Source of the DNA: Natronorubrum texcoconense
Lineage (GTDB): Archaea; Halobacteriota; Halobacteria; Halobacteriales; Natrialbaceae
Direction of reading: 5' to 3'
Assembly (NCBI RefSeq): GCF_900100335.1
Contig: NZ_FNFE01000001.1
Span: 682,001 to 746,000 of the forward strand
DNA length: 64,000 bases
Within the stretch, counting starts at the first letter, position 1; the number at the start of each line of letters is the position of its first letter. The notes beneath the pieces were generated by a model. That model did not search any database. It was not told the origin of the DNA and saw only the letters and a list, made by a program, of their open reading frames with translations. Position numbers and translations under genes: made by a program. Below, one piece after another: positions 5,222-61,421 of the stretch.

Positions 5222-5563
5222 GTGTTCTGGACTCGAGCCAACCGTCTTGAACACTGTGTCATCGCCTCGCGAGGAGCCGTCGGTCGTCGCCGTCGTGGCT
5301 CGACCGCCGACCGCTGGTTCGGGCGGATGATTCCTGTTCATCCACCCGGTGTGTTCACGTTCATGCTGACTATTCCCGACGAGCGACGGTTCGCCGGACG
5401 GATCACCCCGCTCAGCCGAGCCGGTCGGCCCACGTCGGGCTACGGACGCTCTCGGTCGCCTTGTAGAAAAGTATGCACGATACTGTATATTAGCACACAC
5501 CGACCGCCGCGGGTGGGGCACAAACACGGGGATTTTTATCTACTCGGGCGCCTACTCACTTCC
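5222..5563. other. Divergent intergenic region between MutS-like gene and purF
   Basis: About 340 bp with no convincing gene. It holds the promoters of two divergent genes. On the plus strand, a TATA element TTTTTATC at 5532-5539 sits about 25 nt before the chosen purF ATG. The open frames crossing the region have non-haloarchaeal composition and are read as upstream extensions of the flanking genes. Confidence 0.6.
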
Positions 5564-5564
5564 A
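5532..5564 (+). promoter_or_regulatory. purF TATA box and leaderless start
   Basis: TTTTTATC at 5532-5539 is about 25-32 nt upstream of ATG 5564. This spacing predicts a transcription start within a few nt of the ATG and decides in favour of 5564 over the internal ATG at 5603. Confidence 0.6.
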
Positions 5565-7075
5565 TGACTGATGGGCGGGGCGAGACTCCCCGGCGAACAG
5601 GAATGACCGAGAAGTGTGGCGTCGTCGGCGTCTCACTGAGCGGTCGAGACGCGGCACGACCGTTGTACTACGCGCTCTACGCACTCCAGCATCGCGGCCA
5701 GGAGTCCGCGGGGATCGTCACGCACGACGGCTTTCAACAGCACAGCCACGTCGAGATGGGACTCGTTGGCGACGTCTTCGACGAGGACGACCTCGACGTG
5801 CTCAACGGCGCAGCAGGGATCGGCCACGTTCGGTACCCTACCGCGGGGTCCGTCGACTCCTCCTGTGCCCAGCCCTTCTCCGTCTCGTTCAAAAGCGGCT
5901 CGCTCGGCCTGAGCCACAACGGCAACCTCGTCAACGCCGACGAGATCAGGGACGAACTCGCCGCCACGGGCCACGCCTTCACCAGCGACGGCGACACCGA
6001 GGTCATCGCCCACGACCTCGCGCGCAACCTGCTCGAGGAGGACCTCGTGCGCGCCGTCAAGCACACGATGCAGCGCATCCACGGCTCCTACTCGCTGACG
6101 ATCAGCCACGACGATACGATTCTCGGCGTGCGCGACCCGCAGGGCAATCGGCCGCTCTGCATCGGGAAACTCGACGACGGCTACATTCTCGCCTCCGAAT
6201 CGGCGGCGATAGACACGCTCGACGGTGAACTCGTCCGGGACGTTCGTCCGGGCGAACTCGTCGTCCTGCAGAAAGACGGCCAGGGATTCGACTCCTACCA
6301 GCTGATCGAGAAGGAGAACACCGCCCACTGCTTCTTCGAACACGTCTACTTCGCGCGACCCGACAGCGTCATCGACGAGACGCTGGTCTACGAGGCGCGC
6401 CGAAATCTCGGTCGCAAGCTCTGGGAGGAAAGCGGCGTCGAGAGCGACGTCGTGATGCCGGTGCCCGACTCCGGTCGCGCGTTCGCGGCCGGCTACGCCG
6501 ACGCGGCGACCGAAACCACCGCCAACGGCGAGCTCCGGGAGGAGGAAGACGACGGCGTCGAGTTCGCGGAGGGGCTGATGAAGAACCGGTACGTCGGCCG
6601 GACGTTCATTATGCCGACTCAGGACGAGCGCGAACGGGCGGTACGACTCAAGCTCAACCCGATCAAATCGACCATCGAGGGCAAGACCGTCACGGTCATC
6701 GACGACAGTATCGTCCGCGGGACCACCTCGACGCAGCTCGTCCAACTGCTCAAGGACTGCGGGGCCGAGGCGGTCCACGTCCGAATCGGCGCGCCGGAGA
6801 TCGTCGCGCCGTGTTACATGGGGATCAACATGGCCACCCGCGAGGAGCTGATCGCCTCGGACAAGACGACCGAGGAGATCCGCGACACGATCAACGCTGA
6901 CAGCCTCGCGTACCTCTCGACCGACGCGGTCGCGGAGGTGCTCGAGAAGGACCGTCTCGATCTCTGTCTCGGCTGCGTGACCGGCGAGTACCCCTACGAT
7001 ATCGACGGCGAGGAAACTGACCGCGACGTCACCCGTCCGGAACTCGGCGGGCAAGCGCTCCACGCCGACGACTAA
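5564..7075 (+). CDS. purF: Amidophosphoribosyltransferase (first step of purine synthesis)
   Basis: A 503-aa glutamine PRPP amidotransferase converting PRPP and glutamine to phosphoribosylamine in the cytoplasm. The N-terminal Ntn glutaminase starts at Cys in EKCGVVGV; with the leaderless ATG at 5564 this Cys is preceded by a 17-residue propeptide that would be removed. YALQHRGQESAG and NGNLVN fit the amidotransferase site. The PRPP loop is VIDDSIVRGTTS. Four Cys in HCFFEHVYFARPDS, PCYMG and CLGC match the iron-sulfur ligands of the Bacillus-type enzyme. Length is usual. An internal ATG at 5603 would give only a four-residue propeptide. Confidence 0.95.
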   Translation: MTDGRGETPRRTGMTEKCGVVGVSLSGRDAARPLYYALYALQHRGQESAGIVTHDGFQQHSHVEMGLVGDVFDEDDLDVLNGAAGIGHVRYPTAGSVDSSCAQPFSVSFKSGSLGLSHNGNLVNADEIRDELAATGHAFTSDGDTEVIAHDLARNLLEEDLVRAVKHTMQRIHGSYSLTISHDDTILGVRDPQGNRPLCIGKLDDGYILASESAAIDTLDGELVRDVRPGELVVLQKDGQGFDSYQLIEKENTAHCFFEHVYFARPDSVIDETLVYEARRNLGRKLWEESGVESDVVMPVPDSGRAFAAGYADAATETTANGELREEEDDGVEFAEGLMKNRYVGRTFIMPTQDERERAVRLKLNPIKSTIEGKTVTVIDDSIVRGTTSTQLVQLLKDCGAEAVHVRIGAPEIVAPCYMGINMATREELIASDKTTEEIRDTINADSLAYLSTDAVAEVLEKDRLDLCLGCVTGEYPYDIDGEETDRDVTRPELGGQALHADD

Positions 7076-45763: not shown

Positions 45764-46525
45764 CTACCAGTTTGCGTCGTCCCAGCGGTCGTCGTCGCGG
45801 TTAGTTCGCGTCCTGTCGTCGGTCGTCGTTCCCCACCCGTCGTTCTGGGTGTCGTCCTCGGATGTCGACGTCTCGTCGGTCGGCCGGTTCTCGAGGTAGA
45901 CGCGAGCGAGGGCGAACTGGACGACGGGGCTGACGACCGCGGTCAGGAGAGCCGAGACGAGCAGGAACGTGAGGTAGAACTCACCATCGAGACCGGTGTA
46001 CAGCACCGTGACGATCCCGACGCTACCGACGACGACGAGCGATGCGACGAAGATGCCGAACAGCTTCAGGAGGTTTCCTTTTGCCACTGACCAGCTCGTG
46101 CTGAGGCTCTCGAACGCGTCCTGATCGTCGATAACGCAGGCCGGAAACGCAAGGGAGAGGCGAACCGCGAGGTAGATTCCCGGGAGAATCAGAAAGATGA
46201 GTCCGATGGAAACCGCAATCACGTAGGCGATCCAGATCACGATCAGCGAGAGGTACCGCCCGAGGACGGTCGAGGAGGCTCGCCCGATATCCCCGGACTC
46301 CCCGGACGCTTCCTGCTTGCCGATCACGTGGACGAGCCCGTCGATGTAGGGCAAGAGGAGCCAGCCGACCAGCGTGAGCACGACTCCGGCGGGTCCGAGA
46401 ATCTCGGCGCCGAGTTCGATCAAGCCGTACAGCAAGAACACGACCATCAGTATCGGATTTCGACGGAGCCACTCGATTCCGTCGCCGATCGACCCGATCA
46501 CGCCTTTCCGCTGGAGGGACGGCAT
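45764..46525 (-). CDS. Multi-pass membrane protein, unknown function
   Basis: A 253-aa membrane protein with about six hydrophobic segments (PILMVVFLLYGLIELG, GPAGVVLTLVGWLLLP, RYLSLIVIWIAYVIAVSIGLIFLILPGIYLAVRLSLAFP and others). The pattern PGIYLAVRLSLAFPACVIDDQDAFESLSTSWSVAKGN is typical of the DUF7847/YciC-like membrane family. The C-terminal 40 residues are acidic and disordered. No enzymatic motif. Convergent with the Usp gene. Confidence 0.78.
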   Translation of the reverse strand: MPSLQRKGVIGSIGDGIEWLRRNPILMVVFLLYGLIELGAEILGPAGVVLTLVGWLLLPYIDGLVHVIGKQEASGESGDIGRASSTVLGRYLSLIVIWIAYVIAVSIGLIFLILPGIYLAVRLSLAFPACVIDDQDAFESLSTSWSVAKGNLLKLFGIFVASLVVVGSVGIVTVLYTGLDGEFYLTFLLVSALLTAVVSPVVQFALARVYLENRPTDETSTSEDDTQNDGWGTTTDDRTRTNRDDDRWDDANW

Positions 46526-57121: not shown

Positions 57122-57820
57122 GTGGCGACCGAGGGTGCCCGGAGCGGCGGTCGGTGGCTTCGCGACCAGTTCGATCGGCTCTCGTGGTTCCAGAAGTCGC
57201 TGCTGACCGGTGCGATCCTGACGATTCTGTGGATGAACTACGTCCCGGGCGACCTCGAGCGACGGGTCTGGGTCGACGGACTGTTACTGATCGGCGGCCC
57301 GCTCGCTCTGGGCCTCACGCACGGGAACCACATCGGCTGGAACATCAACCGCGTCGCCGTCCGGAACGCGGTGTTGCTCTCGCTGTTCGTCCTCCCGTTC
57401 TACCTGATCGGCTCGACGCTGCCGACGATCCGAGCGTTCTATCCGATGTGGGAGACGTCGGCCGCACTGGGCGAATTCGTGCCCCACGCGGTCCAGCTAT
57501 TCATCCTTGCGCTGGCCGCCGAGACGTACTATCGCGGCCTGCTCTGTGTCGGCGTCAGGGAGATCGGGTTCAAGGCAGTGCTCATCAGCCCCGTCGTCTA
57601 CATGATCCACCACGCCGGGAAACCGCCGATCGAGTTCTTGCTGTCGGGACCGACGGACATCCTCTTCGGCGCGGTGGACTACGAGTCCAACTCCATTCTC
57701 CCCTCCGTCATCGCCCACGGAGCCGGGCTCGTGTTGCTCGACTGGCTCGTGGTTCACGATCCGCTGTTCGATCCGACGTCGGCGTTGCAACACCTCGAGT
57801 GGCTGCCGGTTCCGTTGTGA
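57122..57820 (+). CDS. CPBP-like intramembrane metalloprotease (second copy)
   Basis: A 232-aa membrane protein. The motif AAETYYRGLLCVGVREIG is the ExxxR of the CPBP family; later VYMIHHAGKPP and SVIAHGAGLVLLDWL provide the His residues. It is shorter than the gene at 54627 and has fewer helices. It begins at GTG 57122, 6 nt after the DUF5789 stop. Possibly co-functional with that protein, which is inference. Confidence 0.85.
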   Translation: MATEGARSGGRWLRDQFDRLSWFQKSLLTGAILTILWMNYVPGDLERRVWVDGLLLIGGPLALGLTHGNHIGWNINRVAVRNAVLLSLFVLPFYLIGSTLPTIRAFYPMWETSAALGEFVPHAVQLFILALAAETYYRGLLCVGVREIGFKAVLISPVVYMIHHAGKPPIEFLLSGPTDILFGAVDYESNSILPSVIAHGAGLVLLDWLVVHDPLFDPTSALQHLEWLPVPL

Positions 57821-57894: not shown

Positions 57895-58596
57895 TCAGTG
57901 ACGATTCGCGGCGAACGAGGCGACGGCGAGACCGACGGCGACGAGTGCAACACCTCCAGTGAATCCGGGAGTTCCGTCGCTCGCGTCGTCGCTCGCCGTC
58001 GTCGCTCCCGAAAGCGTCAGCTCGAATCCGTCGAGATCGGTTTCGGCGTCCCACGTCGCCCGAGTCTCGTCTTGCGTCGTCGGTTCCGGTGTCGACGACT
58101 CGATCGTCGCCTCAGTTGGTGCGGTCACGACGAGTGATCGATCGGCGTCGAATCCGCTTGCGAACGGTTCCGTGACGACGAGCGTGTCGTCTTCGACTGC
58201 CGCCAGTCCCTCCCAGGTCACGGAGAGCGTCACGATTCCGCGGTCGTCGGAGACGGAAACGTCGGCCGATTCGGTAGCCACCGTCATCTCGCGCCCGACG
58301 TTGGCTTCCGCGTTTGTCGCAACTGAATCGAACCGATCAGCGCCCCGGTCCAGTAACTCATCTTGTGCCGATTCGTCCTCCCGAAGCGTTTCGAGCGCAT
58401 CACGTTCGTCCGGGTCAGTGAGGTCGTAAATCGAAATCAACGACACGGTGGCATCTCCGTCTGCGTCGAGGTCGACGTGAACCGCTGATTCCTCGACGGA
58501 CTCTCCGCTGTTCGAACTCGATGCGGCGACTGGCAGTGCGAACGCGCTCACGAAGAGGAGCGAAATGACGCCTACGGTAGCGAGTTCGCGCTGCAT
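57895..58596 (-). CDS. Exported protein with PGF-CTERM anchor (shared sensor-like ectodomain)
   Basis: A 233-aa exported protein. It has a signal peptide (MQRELATVGVISLLFVSAFALPVAAS), an ectodomain of about 170 residues and a C-terminal PGF-CTERM sorting signal (GTPGFTGGVALVAVGLAVASFAANRH), the substrate of archaeosortase A, leading to lipid anchoring at the surface. The ectodomain aligns with that of the protein at 59718-60809 (shared DGxA, D-E-x-x-ALETLR..., VATN/VATA, TVTWEGLAAVEDDTL vs TFTWHGFAAVDGDEL, then VTAP and a W-terminated strand). It follows the coiled-coil exported gene with 2 nt between. Possibly DUF7345 family. Confidence 0.8.
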   Translation of the reverse strand: MQRELATVGVISLLFVSAFALPVAASSSNSGESVEESAVHVDLDADGDATVSLISIYDLTDPDERDALETLREDESAQDELLDRGADRFDSVATNAEANVGREMTVATESADVSVSDDRGIVTLSVTWEGLAAVEDDTLVVTEPFASGFDADRSLVVTAPTEATIESSTPEPTTQDETRATWDAETDLDGFELTLSGATTASDDASDGTPGFTGGVALVAVGLAVASFAANRH

Positions 58597-58598
58597 CG

Positions 58599-59423
58599 TT
58601 ACTCGTCACCACTGTGGCTGTCGGTTTCTTCGTGCTCGGCTTCGTTCGCGGTTTCCGAGTCGTCGCTACCGGATTCTGGTTCGTCTGTTACGTTTGCGTT
58701 GTCGGTCGAATTGGTTTCGTCCGCGTCCTCGCCAGCCGATCCGTCATCGGCGTCGCGGTCTGGAGCGGTTTCGTTCTGCTGTGGGGCATCGTTGCCCCGA
58801 TCCGTGCCCGGCGTGTCTATCGGTGCTCCCGGTTCACGGTCCGCGAAGGGTGACTGGCCGACGCTGTCACCGGCGATCGACTGTGCGATCGCGGCGACAT
58901 CGCCACCGCCGAGTTCGGCGGCATTGGTTCGGAGCTCTGCAATCGCGCTCGCGTTGATCCCTCGGTCCTCGAGGACGGACTCGTTCAACTCACCCGCGGT
59001 AGCGCTGGCGTCTCCCGCGACGCGTTCGACCGTGGCCGTCTCCGCGGCGATCGTCGCGACTTCAGCTCGGTACTGTCCTTCGCTAATCTCGCCGGATTCG
59101 CGGGCTTCTTCGAGCGCTTCGAGGCGCTCTTCGTGTTCAGCGAATCGCTCTTCGGCGTCGGCGAACTGCTTTTCGACGACGTCCGCTCGCTCGTCGTCGG
59201 ATTGTGCGTTCGCGAGCGCGATGCCGTAGGTTCGCTCCGAGAGCTCACCCTGAAGCTCCGCTTCCTGTACGCCGATGGCACCGGTTAGCTGTTCGCCGGG
59301 GGCAATCGATTCGTCGTCGCTCTGGTTCTGTTCGTTCGCGAGGGCACCCGCCGCGCCGAGTGGCATCGCTGCCAGCGAGACGACGAGTGCGACCGCCAGT
59401 ATGATCGTCGTGAGTCGGTTCAT
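58599..59423 (-). CDS. Exported coiled-coil protein (DUF7096-like)
   Basis: A 274-aa exported protein with a signal peptide (MNRLTTIILAVALVVSLAAMPLGAAGA). A helical middle (residues 70-115: ADVVEKQFADAEERFAEHEERLEALEEARESGEISEGQYRAEVA) predicts a coiled coil, then a second helical part, and the last 85 residues are acidic and disordered (Asp, Glu, Asn, Thr). No C-terminal membrane helix is seen, so it is probably secreted or held by partners. It is the first gene of an operon with the PGF-CTERM protein; a TATA-like GTATATCA lies about 30 nt upstream. Confidence 0.78.
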   Translation of the reverse strand: MNRLTTIILAVALVVSLAAMPLGAAGALANEQNQSDDESIAPGEQLTGAIGVQEAELQGELSERTYGIALANAQSDDERADVVEKQFADAEERFAEHEERLEALEEARESGEISEGQYRAEVATIAAETATVERVAGDASATAGELNESVLEDRGINASAIAELRTNAAELGGGDVAAIAQSIAGDSVGQSPFADREPGAPIDTPGTDRGNDAPQQNETAPDRDADDGSAGEDADETNSTDNANVTDEPESGSDDSETANEAEHEETDSHSGDE

Positions 59424-59438
59424 GACAACTCATCCTAT

Positions 59439-59475
59439 GGAGTAACCGGTGATATACACTCGAGTTGATTACTCC
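59439..59475 (-). promoter_or_regulatory. Inverted repeat around the TATA box of the exported operon
   Basis: GGAGTAA (59439-59445) and TTACTCC (59469-59475) bracket the TATA-like element (near 59450-59457) of the operon reading leftwards from 59423. A possible operator for a winged-helix regulator, such as the one at 59718-60809. Confidence 0.4.
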
Positions 59476-59717
59476 GGTTCAACGACCGTTTCCGACGTTT
59501 TCTCCCATTTTCGATCCGTTGCAGTCTGGCGATTTCTCGAGTTGGTCGGTCGAAGCGCGAGTGCGTGCTCGCCGGCGTCAATTTCCTCGAGAGCAGTTCG
59601 TGACCACTCCACTGCGTTTCTCAGATCGACGCCGACAGTACCGGCCGCTCACCGCTACCGGCGGCCCCAACCGTGGAATCCGTCGGTAACGGCTGGCGCC
59701 TCGTCGCCGACGATCGC
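59476..59717. other. Short intergenic stretch
   Basis: About 240 bp with no credible gene on either strand; the frames are Arg/Ser-rich shadows. Separates the exported operon from the membrane winged-helix gene. Confidence 0.4.
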
Positions 59718-60809
59718 TCACCCGTTTTGGATCGAGTCGGCTGCCGTATCGGAGGCCTCGTCGTCCGCCGGAAGCGACAGCACGTTCTCGCGTCCGAGAC
59801 GGAACGACTCCAGTTCGCCCTCCTCGCGGAGGGTGCTTACGACCTTACTCGTCTTCGCGTCGGTCCACTCCAGTTCCTCGACGACGGTCTGCTGTTTCAT
59901 CCGCCCGCCGTACTCCTCGAGCAGGCGGAGAACCTGTTCTTCGTTGCTGAGCAGGTCGTCCCGCGGATCGGGAGTGTCGTCGGTCCCCGCTGTCGCCGTC
60001 CGGGCATCGGCGTCGCTCGCCTCCGCAGCGGAGGGTGACGTGGGGGCGTCGGCGGGTTCGTTCGTGGCGGACGAACGAGTTCGGTACCACCAGATCCCAC
60101 CGGCTCCGACGGCGACGACGACCGCGGCCGCACCGATGGCTATCGTTCCGAAGCCGAGTCCACCGGAAGAGACGACGACGCTGGGCTCGCCGGAGACGAA
60201 GTCGGTCTCGCTTCCGTGCCAGATGACGGTCCGGTCACGTTGGTCGTCCGGGTCGGGTTCGGCCGAGACGAGTTCGTACGCCTCGGGCCACCCGATCGAC
60301 AACCGCGTTTCGTCGTCGAGGTACAGTCCCTCGATCGCGTCGCCCGCGTGGAGTTCGTCGCCGTCGACCGCGGCGAAGCCGTGCCACGTGAACGTGTATC
60401 TGACAACCCCGTACTCGGCACCGAACGACTGACGGGCGGTTTCGACGGTGAACTCCTCGGCCGACATCTCCCGATCCGTTGCGCTGACCGCCGTCGCCAC
60501 GGTGTCGTCGATTCGATCCGCGAACTGGTCCCTGTACGCGTCCGGGTCCTCATCGATATCGTCTCTGATGGATTCGAAGGCTTCGGTGCTCTCGTCGTCG
60601 TCGAGACGAACCCAGAACTCGACGGACCACTCGGCGCTGCCGTCTTCCTCCAGCGAAATATCGAGCCGCGTCTCGTCGGCGTCGATCTCTTCCGGCTCTC
60701 CCGCGACGGAGACCGACTCCGAGCTGCTCGGTTGGGCGACCGCCATCGGCGTGGCAGCGACGGTCCCGACGCCAACGAGGAGGACCACCAGCACGACGCG
60801 GAGATTCAT
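59718..60809 (-). CDS. Membrane-anchored winged-helix regulator with exported ectodomain
   Basis: A 363-aa one-component sensor-regulator. Signal peptide (MNLRVVLVVLLVGVGTVAATPMAVAQ), an ectodomain of about 180 residues homologous to that of the gene at 57895-58596, one transmembrane helix (LGFGTIAIGAAAVVVAVGAGGIWWY, about 220-243), an acidic linker and a cytoplasmic winged helix (DDLLSNEEQVLRLLEEYGGRMKQQTVVEELEWTDAKTSKVVSTLREEGELESFRLGRENVLSL), the DUF7343-type helix found in haloarchaeal membrane regulators. Topology places sensing outside and DNA binding inside. Ligand unknown. Confidence 0.85.
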   Translation of the reverse strand: MNLRVVLVVLLVGVGTVAATPMAVAQPSSSESVSVAGEPEEIDADETRLDISLEEDGSAEWSVEFWVRLDDDESTEAFESIRDDIDEDPDAYRDQFADRIDDTVATAVSATDREMSAEEFTVETARQSFGAEYGVVRYTFTWHGFAAVDGDELHAGDAIEGLYLDDETRLSIGWPEAYELVSAEPDPDDQRDRTVIWHGSETDFVSGEPSVVVSSGGLGFGTIAIGAAAVVVAVGAGGIWWYRTRSSATNEPADAPTSPSAAEASDADARTATAGTDDTPDPRDDLLSNEEQVLRLLEEYGGRMKQQTVVEELEWTDAKTSKVVSTLREEGELESFRLGRENVLSLPADDEASDTAADSIQNG

Positions 60810-60921
60810 ACGCCACCGTGCTACCAGCGGTGCTTAAAATAATCGGTCCTCGATAATTCTTGTCAAAACGGTAGCCAACGTGTTAGATGTTTCAACCCTC
60901 GGTACCCGAATCTACGACCGT

Positions 60922-61182
60922 TTACGCTCCGGATGGTGGAGCATCGCCGGCACCCGGAACGAAACGTTGGATGGCCTCGCCGAGTGCGGAGAGGACGCCG
61001 CTAACGAAGTCGTTAACCGACTGAAGCAGACCCGTCACGAAATCGGGAACCGGGTCGGGCAAGTCGACCGGCGGCCCCTCGCCCTGGGCTGTCGCCCCGT
61101 TAGTTGGCTGTGCCGTCGCTGCAACCGTCCCCCCGACGAGGACGACGAAGGCGATCGTGAGCACGAGTAAGTATCGATTCAT
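60922..61182 (-). CDS. Small exported protein of unknown function
   Basis: An 86-aa protein with a signal peptide (MNRYLLVLTIAFVVLVGGTVAATAQ) and a short mature part of about 60 residues containing an amphipathic helix (FVTGLLQSVNDFVSGVLSALGEAIQRFVPG) and a Pro/Gly-rich end. No known family. It starts at ATG 61182 and ends 112 nt upstream of the winged-helix sensor start, in the same direction, so it may be co-transcribed with it and could be a secreted or membrane-associated partner. Confidence 0.65.
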   Translation of the reverse strand: MNRYLLVLTIAFVVLVGGTVAATAQPTNGATAQGEGPPVDLPDPVPDFVTGLLQSVNDFVSGVLSALGEAIQRFVPGAGDAPPSGA

Positions 61183-61421
61183 CACACCAATTCGACGGAC
61201 CCTCACCGGCATTAACCGGTCAGTTCGTTACCTCGGCTTGCACCGATTCTTCGGCGGTTTGTCGCCCGTTTTCCCCGGGTTTCCTCGAGATGCGTCGGTC
61301 AAGATCCGCACCGAGTGAGACTCCACAAACCGCGTCCGGTTCGCGCTCGCGGACACGAATCTACCGACTGCCAGCCGCGTTTCGACCACACGTATTTGAG
61401 CCACGACGGTGAAGAGTGGGT

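Follow-up and report, generated by a model that had tools for sequence, protein, structure and literature searches.

How does a signal at the surface of a haloarchaeal cell reach a promoter? Haloarchaea carry many surface proteins, yet few routes from the outside to a promoter are known. The question is raised by four minus-strand open reading frames (ORFs) in a stretch of 64,000 nucleotides of Natronorubrum texcoconense DNA (contig NZ_FNFE01000001.1, positions 682,001 to 746,000; hereafter the window), which we name, in the order of their transcription, SMALL, REG, CC and SOLO. An earlier reading of the window (the original prediction) had placed four exported proteins at 57895-61182, a transmembrane winged-helix regulator among them, and had proposed a surface-signaling module that pairs a decoy with a receptor. 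The four ORFs lie where it put them, and in its sense of a surface-signaling module we judge it right. We consider it reasonably probable that these genes form a self-contained surface-sensing module, in which REG would bind helically phased operator arrays and drive its exported partners, with CC and SOLO providing feedback. Architecture, homology, the linkage of REG to CC, the arrays, their restriction to the module and the covariation of recognition helix and site were computed directly; the coordinates of all features are collected in Table 1.

Architecture of the REG regulator

In a single polypeptide, REG carries a signal peptide, a DUF7345 ectodomain, a membrane helix, an acidic linker and a DUF7343 winged helix, in that order, and the predicted transmembrane winged-helix regulator is thereby borne out by domain matches and an AlphaFold2 model. 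Both Pfam matches lie over their cut-offs (DUF7345, PF24036: 102.4 bits against 27.5; DUF7343, PF24034: 99.1 bits against 27.6). The model places the winged helix at residues 289-345, for which Foldseek retrieves MarR-like winged helices, and gives the acidic linker that precedes this domain as long and of low confidence. Because YRTR follows the membrane helix, the C-terminus is expected in the cytoplasm (positive-inside rule). With its sensor and DNA-binding parts in one membrane-spanning polypeptide, as judged from the domain matches and the model, REG falls under the definition of a one-component regulator. All four proteins begin with hydrophobic, signal-peptide-like N-termini that recur in homologues, in keeping with the signal peptides claimed for them; these calls are based on hydropathy and conservation in relatives only.

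The fusion of DUF7345 to DUF7343 recurs across Halobacteria and other Halobacteriota. DUF7345 was found in 60 of the 61 haloarchaeal genomes of a first survey and in part of the other Halobacteriota, where the architecture of DUF7345, membrane helix and winged helix is also present. Five DUF7345 proteins are encoded in the window genome, four of them fused to DUF7343, and the window SOLO is the only free one. Literature searches, mostly without subscription journals, found nothing on DUF7345, DUF7343, DUF7096, DUF4897 or Cmi2, and the literature searched describes no function for DUF7345 or DUF7343, nor CC, SOLO or the operator arrays. CsmR (PMC13286277) was considered and rejected, its text containing neither any DUF nor a signal peptide. 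The REG-type proteins of other Halobacteriota (L246-L259) measure about 300-355 residues, have a short linker and the wing GRxNLI, and mostly stand without CC; at L256 a weak CC-like gene lies upstream (E 7e-8).

CC as the near-constant neighbor of REG

Linkage was surveyed in 80 named, species-level haloarchaeal loci picked by REG alone. CC is present in 75 of them, no more than 500 bp from REG in 71 and immediately downstream of it, in the same orientation, in 67, and the pair occurs in Natrinema, Haloarcula and Haloferax. The four-gene order that the original prediction proposed to look for does not hold as a unit: REG and CC are kept as the core, whereas SOLO (14 of the 80 loci) and SMALL or a SMALL relative (about a third) are accessory. 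The exported neighbors nonetheless belong to one module, because the promoters of CC, SMALL and the SMALL relatives carry the same type of operator array. The REG-CC pair is retained in unlike settings: next to thpR, argG and argH in Haloarculaceae, among different genes in Natrinema and, in the window, with a CPBP protease and a DUF302 gene nearby. Neighboring genes were tried as a guide to function and set aside, since the flanks are housekeeping genes (thpR, argG, argH, a helicase, a tRNA ligase) that vary between families and are therefore uninformative on the signal.

CC itself has a conserved core at about residues 41-190 (PGExLxGVVGVQxAE ... GPEVAAIARSIAG), followed by an acidic tail without an anchor. 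No Pfam family matches it over the cut-off; DUF7096 reaches 19.8 bits against a cut-off of 27, with the signal peptide as its best stretch, and 26.5 bits in one relative. In the small genome of a non-haloarchaeal member of the Halobacteriota, from another order than the window (genome G126, L254:3632-6213), CC and SOLO are divergent from a frame-broken REG (5237-5548 and 5386-6213), so that the trio is either older than the haloarchaea or transferred. On contig 7 of the window genome (L142:4426-5796), a REG paralogue is divergent from a longer exported protein whose N-terminal part is weakly CC-like (E 7e-5).

SOLO and the shared ectodomain

SOLO matches DUF7345 at 77.9 bits (cut-off 27.5), and Pfam finds no DUF7343 or other winged helix in it. 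The claim that the ectodomains of the proteins at 57895-58596 and 59718-60809 align stands up well: both are DUF7345 domains with 28% identity (pairwise E 4e-13), and a profile-profile alignment of 52 REG with 25 SOLO ectodomains gives a probability of 99.95 and an E-value of 2e-37 over 158 columns. AlphaFold2 models of both, built from family alignments and mostly at a predicted local distance difference test (pLDDT) score of 91-98, have the same order of elements, by which likeness was judged (E-E-H-H(long), then at least six strands). The two models also retrieve the same remote list from the PDB, where Foldseek found no superposable structure and a sequence search no match; FMO proteins are best by E-value at a template modeling (TM) score of at most 0.25, and LppM and ZrgA reach at most 0.39. 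To judge from these models, the ectodomain appears to be without a clear solved relative. DUF4897, which occurs in Thermotoga maritima among the control genomes, is weakly similar to both window ectodomains (E 1e-5 and 1.6e-4).

Homologous ectodomains with conserved residues in common (a TGREM/DREM turn and W-G-F/L-A) would suit the idea of a decoy plus receptor, according to which SOLO displays the ligand-binding ectodomain of REG and competes with REG for a common ligand, be it CC or some other molecule; the place of SOLO in an operon probably under REG control would also suit negative feedback. SOLO is absent, however, from 66 of the 80 REG loci, and it tracks CC rather than REG, since it lies directly behind CC even at loci with REG in the opposite orientation or beyond reach. 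This position, on the same strand as CC, holds in 40 of the 42 scored occurrences, the exceptions being a fragment of a frameshifted REG (L254) and an overlap with REG (L243); of the 42, 27 have REG on the same strand and 9 on the opposite one, and in 6 it lies beyond reach. SOLO ectodomains, moreover, make up an old, long-branched clade with its own motif (EPFASGF, against GDAxEGxYL at the same place in REG), so that the two kinds of ectodomain need not present an identical ligand surface. In the ectodomain tree, 22 of the 25 SOLO rows fall into one clade (Shimodaira-Hasegawa-like approximate likelihood ratio test (SH-aLRT) value of 100) and the other three (families f9 and f11) elsewhere, and the SOLO and REG labels change 2 times against 21 in shuffles. 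SOLO therefore derives from one or two old duplications and not from repeated local copying. All considered, we regard competition for a shared ligand as unlikely.

The start of SOLO is 2 nt behind CC, and the two genes are probably one operon. As to the PGF-CTERM end claimed for SOLO, the motif is there (PGF, a hydrophobic stretch and an RH end), 16 of the 25 relatives match TIGR04126 (PGF-CTERM) at E <= 0.1 (best E 1.2e-9) and the archaeosortase ArtA is encoded in the window genome (E 3.7e-98), but the tail of the window SOLO scores below the family cut-off of 24.5 bits, at 15.4. SOLO is predicted to be anchored outside by this tail, after processing by ArtA.

Phased putative operator arrays upstream of CC and SMALL

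The 94 bp up to the TATA box of CC align without gaps across 26 Natrialbaceae loci, with 80% mean column identity. They contain the box GAAATCGnCAGACnGC, followed by a run of units, among them GTTGAACGGC, GTTAACCGTC and GTTGAACC, at 10-bp steps; the CC units of Haloarculaceae and Haloferacaceae are TTAATCCGGC or GTTGATTCGG, with the same step. A/T autocorrelation upstream of CC has its maxima at 10 and 20 bp and its minima at 5 and 15. The periodicity index is 0.80 for CC in Natrialbaceae, 0.76 for CC in other families and 0.80 for SMALL and its relatives, against 0.00 +/- 0.04 in shuffled sequence, and it is low before REG (0.13) and SOLO (-0.21). The corresponding z is about 19-20 in two separate sets, from shuffles that ignore relatedness; three sets over two unrelated kinds of gene agree. 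When the window was scanned by chain scoring, the CC and SMALL promoters came first and second (42.9 and 41.8), and five resampled windows scored in the same way reached at most 30.3. In 153 loci, 161 arrays scored over threshold; 142 of these stand before CC or SMALL-related genes, and of the remaining 19 several stand before CC genes of divergent loci or a CC paralogue. A regulator site had been suggested at 59439-59475. That interval takes in the TATA box and the last array unit, but the array itself extends over 59466-59514, with the second box beyond it at 59521-59536.

The arrays are restricted to the module. Searched against whole genomes, a sequence-only model of the CC array (R1) picks out the module's CC promoters, and everything else that it matches is weak and partial; in three genomes without the module it finds nothing below E 0.003. 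A model of the SMALL-type array (R2) matches the SMALL-type promoters; its one further match below E 0.01 is a CC array (E 0.005). Neither model found a convincing array away from the module that would indicate a wider regulon, although shorter or degenerate arrays could escape them. Because these searches match little else, the recognizable targets are the module's own exported genes.

Site type and recognition helix vary together. Seven REG proteins carry a recognition helix WSASKTSR or WSKSKTSR instead of WT.AKTSK/Q, REG and CC-SOLO being mostly divergent there, and the CC units at these KTSR-type loci read TGCAAAYCG instead of TTRAAYSG. GCAA-type arrays accompany a KTSR REG in 6 of 7 cases and a KTSK/Q REG in 0 of 95 (p 5e-9, with loci treated as independent). 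At L147, the array type was predicted after the first six KTSR loci and then read: CTGCAAACGACTGCAAACG. The covariation is kept across several families, and it is the best evidence that REG itself may bind the arrays and that these are more than bent DNA. We strongly infer such binding.

Several points weigh against this binding and the module built on it. The array matrix was trained partly on promoters on which it was tested, and under a matrix from outside Natrialbaceae the window arrays come only second and third, no higher than resampled sequence reaches. This second matrix is weak in the window because the unit differs between families; its top match (46454-46501) falls within an ORF, and we took it for a chance match. 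The seven KTSR REG rows are one clade, which reduces the covariation to one or two events, not 102. CC is out of reach in five of the 80 REG loci and missing beside other REG paralogues, so that not every REG protein requires it. Finally, A-rich tracts in phase make DNA bend, and a wrapping protein or a different regulator could use them.

The arrays might, then, be bound by a different regulator or be curved DNA or wrapping sites, with REG acting elsewhere as a mere neighbor. Phased A-rich tracts are typical of bent DNA, the promoter of REG itself is plain and without an array, and short repeats likewise precede the TATA box of the paralogous CC2 genes, which lie beside an ArsR-type Cmi2. Site type follows the recognition helix of REG, however, and the arrays keep to the module and are absent from genomes that lack it; we hold another binder to be quite unlikely.

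Proposed mechanism

We propose that REG acts as a one-component receptor-regulator, with DUF7345 outside, one helix through the membrane and a MarR-like winged helix in the cytoplasm. Several REG molecules would occupy one face of the DNA next to one another, on sites that recur in phase with the helix (every 10-11 bp) immediately ahead of the core promoters of CC(-SOLO) and SMALL, and would drive both. The placement of all units on one side of the helix would suit receptors lined up in the membrane. Since archaeal activators usually bind upstream of the TATA box, where the array is found, REG is most likely an activator rather than a repressor of CC-SOLO and SMALL. Secreted, helical and without an anchor, CC might set the activity of REG from outside, as feedback; its retention beside REG makes it the likeliest partner outside the cell. 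SOLO, anchored and probably made from CC's transcript, might bind CC at the surface and anchor, present or buffer it. The gene arrangement weakly suggests both roles, that of CC as ligand or feedback partner of REG and that of SOLO as CC binder. The least probable alternative, that REG is a repressor or is freed from the membrane by proteolysis and that the exported proteins are structural surface components, would fit the long, low-confidence acidic linker and the lack of a known activity (Pfam) in the exported proteins, but the array lies upstream of the TATA box and CC is kept beside REG in changing surroundings.

If the proposed mechanism is right, a membrane-tethered regulator on phased arrays shows a way for a membrane-bound protein to engage numerous DNA sites simultaneously, and the widespread DUF7345-DUF7343 family gains a specific predicted operator, a near-constant exported partner and a small predicted set of targets. 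It is conceivable, though we would not count on it, that the same holds class-wide: an archaeal receptor family whose clustered, tethered winged helices read one side of phased arrays and drive none but their own exported partners, with CC as secreted helical ligand and, in certain lineages, SOLO as anchored buffer in a closed surface loop of receptor, ligand and decoy.

Table 1. Positions in the window of the four genes, their domains and their promoter elements, in the order of transcription.
Feature	Position	Strand	Basis or remark
SMALL array, about six AAAC/AAYCG units 10-11 bp apart	61226..61284	-	One of the two top-scoring window arrays; same architecture before SMALL-related genes elsewhere
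SMALL core-promoter-like GGTTAATG, -35 to -28 from ATG	61210..61217	-	Conserved GACYGGTTRA.. in relatives
SMALL, short exported protein, 86 aa from conserved start	60922..61182	-	Homologues at the same place in Natrialbaceae loci
REG promoter, TATA-like box TATTTTAAG, from -32	60833..60841	-	No array upstream
REG, one-component transmembrane regulator, 363 aa	59718..60809	-	Pfam; AlphaFold2 model mfad1777c08e2; 48-sequence alignment A1
REG DUF7345 (PF24036) ectodomain, residues 51-178	60276..60659	-	Pfam E 2.7e-29; pLDDT about 91-98
REG membrane helix, residues 221-246, then YRTR	60072..60149	-	AlphaFold2 helix and hydropathy
REG DUF7343 winged helix, residues 286-347; recognition helix WTDAKTSK, wing GREN	59769..59954	-	Pfam E 1.2e-28
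Second conserved box GAAATCGnCAGACnGC, upstream of CC-SOLO array	59521..59536	-	Alignment A5; similar boxes in other families
CC-SOLO operator array (putative), five units TCGAAAAT, GAGAAAAC, CGGAAACG, GTTGAACC, AGTAATCA, 10-11 bp steps	59466..59514	-	26-locus alignment, periodicity, window scan
CC TATA box GTATAT, -34 to -29 from ATG	59452..59457	-	Array upstream of the box
CC, exported helical/coiled-coil protein, 274 aa	58599..59423	-	37-sequence alignment A2; adjoins REG in 71/80 loci
SOLO, exported DUF7345 ectodomain lacking a regulator part, 233 aa	57895..58596	-	Pfam E 1e-21; AlphaFold2 model m34a5ae2e5a1d
SOLO DUF7345 ectodomain, residues 41-161	58114..58476	-	Pfam; profile-profile match to REG ectodomain
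SOLO PGF-CTERM-like tail, residues 206-233, ending TPGFTGGVALVAVGLAVASFAANRH	57898..57981	-	15.4 bits; relatives; ArtA in genome

Comparison with known systems

In its working, the proposed module would resemble membrane-bound one-component regulators such as ToxR, CadC and ArnR, with reverse topology and unrelated domains. ToxR/ToxS, TcpP/TcpH and CadC are transmembrane regulators with an extracytoplasmic domain and a neighboring partner gene. Unlike REG, they have an N-terminal DNA-binding domain, unrelated domains and a membrane protein as partner, and we know of no phased arrays like those of CC and SMALL for ToxR, TcpP or CadC. In the Cpx system, the exported helical proteins CpxP/Spy are controlled by a sensor which they may regulate in turn. 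Cpx is a two-component system, however, and CC recalls CpxP/Spy in role only; no match of CC to a CpxP/Spy family was found in Pfam or NCBIfam at E <= 1. Among archaea, ArnR and ArnR1 of Sulfolobus acidocaldarius, on which Lassak et al. reportedly worked in 2013, are like REG membrane-bound one-component transcription regulators. REG has the reverse order, with its N-terminal domain outside, one membrane helix and a C-terminal winged helix, whereas ArnR has an N-terminal helix-turn-helix (HTH) domain, a HAMP-like and sensing part and two C-terminal membrane helices (PMC6396743). For TcpP/TcpH, a transmembrane regulator with a partner encoded alongside has been described (PMC11323476).

The haloarchaeal CC2-Cmi2 locus is like the module in that an exported CC paralogue lies beside an HTH regulator gene, with repeats before the TATA box; it differs in that Cmi2 is an ArsR/HTH_Cmi2_C protein without a DUF7345 ectodomain. 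Such a CC paralogue with a regulator of ArsR type and Cmi2 C-terminal part occurs at L149:4639-6512, at the matching places of L150-L160 and, in the window genome, at G000:C3:740216. The CC2 loci are thus a second pairing of an exported helical protein with an HTH regulator; at least one has a DUF5802 gene upstream, and the repeats before the TATA box are GAACG.

Neighboring genes and SMALL

Convergent with SOLO, at 57122-57820 on the plus strand of the window, lies the gene for the CPBP intramembrane protease, which resembles archaeomyxosortase MrtA (72 bits against a 200-bit cut-off). It is common to close relatives only, and we left it out of the module; its place as a sorting enzyme beside a protein with a sorting signal may or may not be due to chance.

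SMALL has no Pfam family. Its conserved amphipathic segment reads LPDPVPDFVxxxLxxxxxFVxGxLxxLGEAxxxxxPG. Loci of the Natrinema/Natronorubrum type (L117-L123 and L168-L189) have extra genes preceded by arrays, namely a longer acidic SMALL relative and what is probably a small membrane protein of about 130 residues, the latter situated between the longer SMALL relative and REG.

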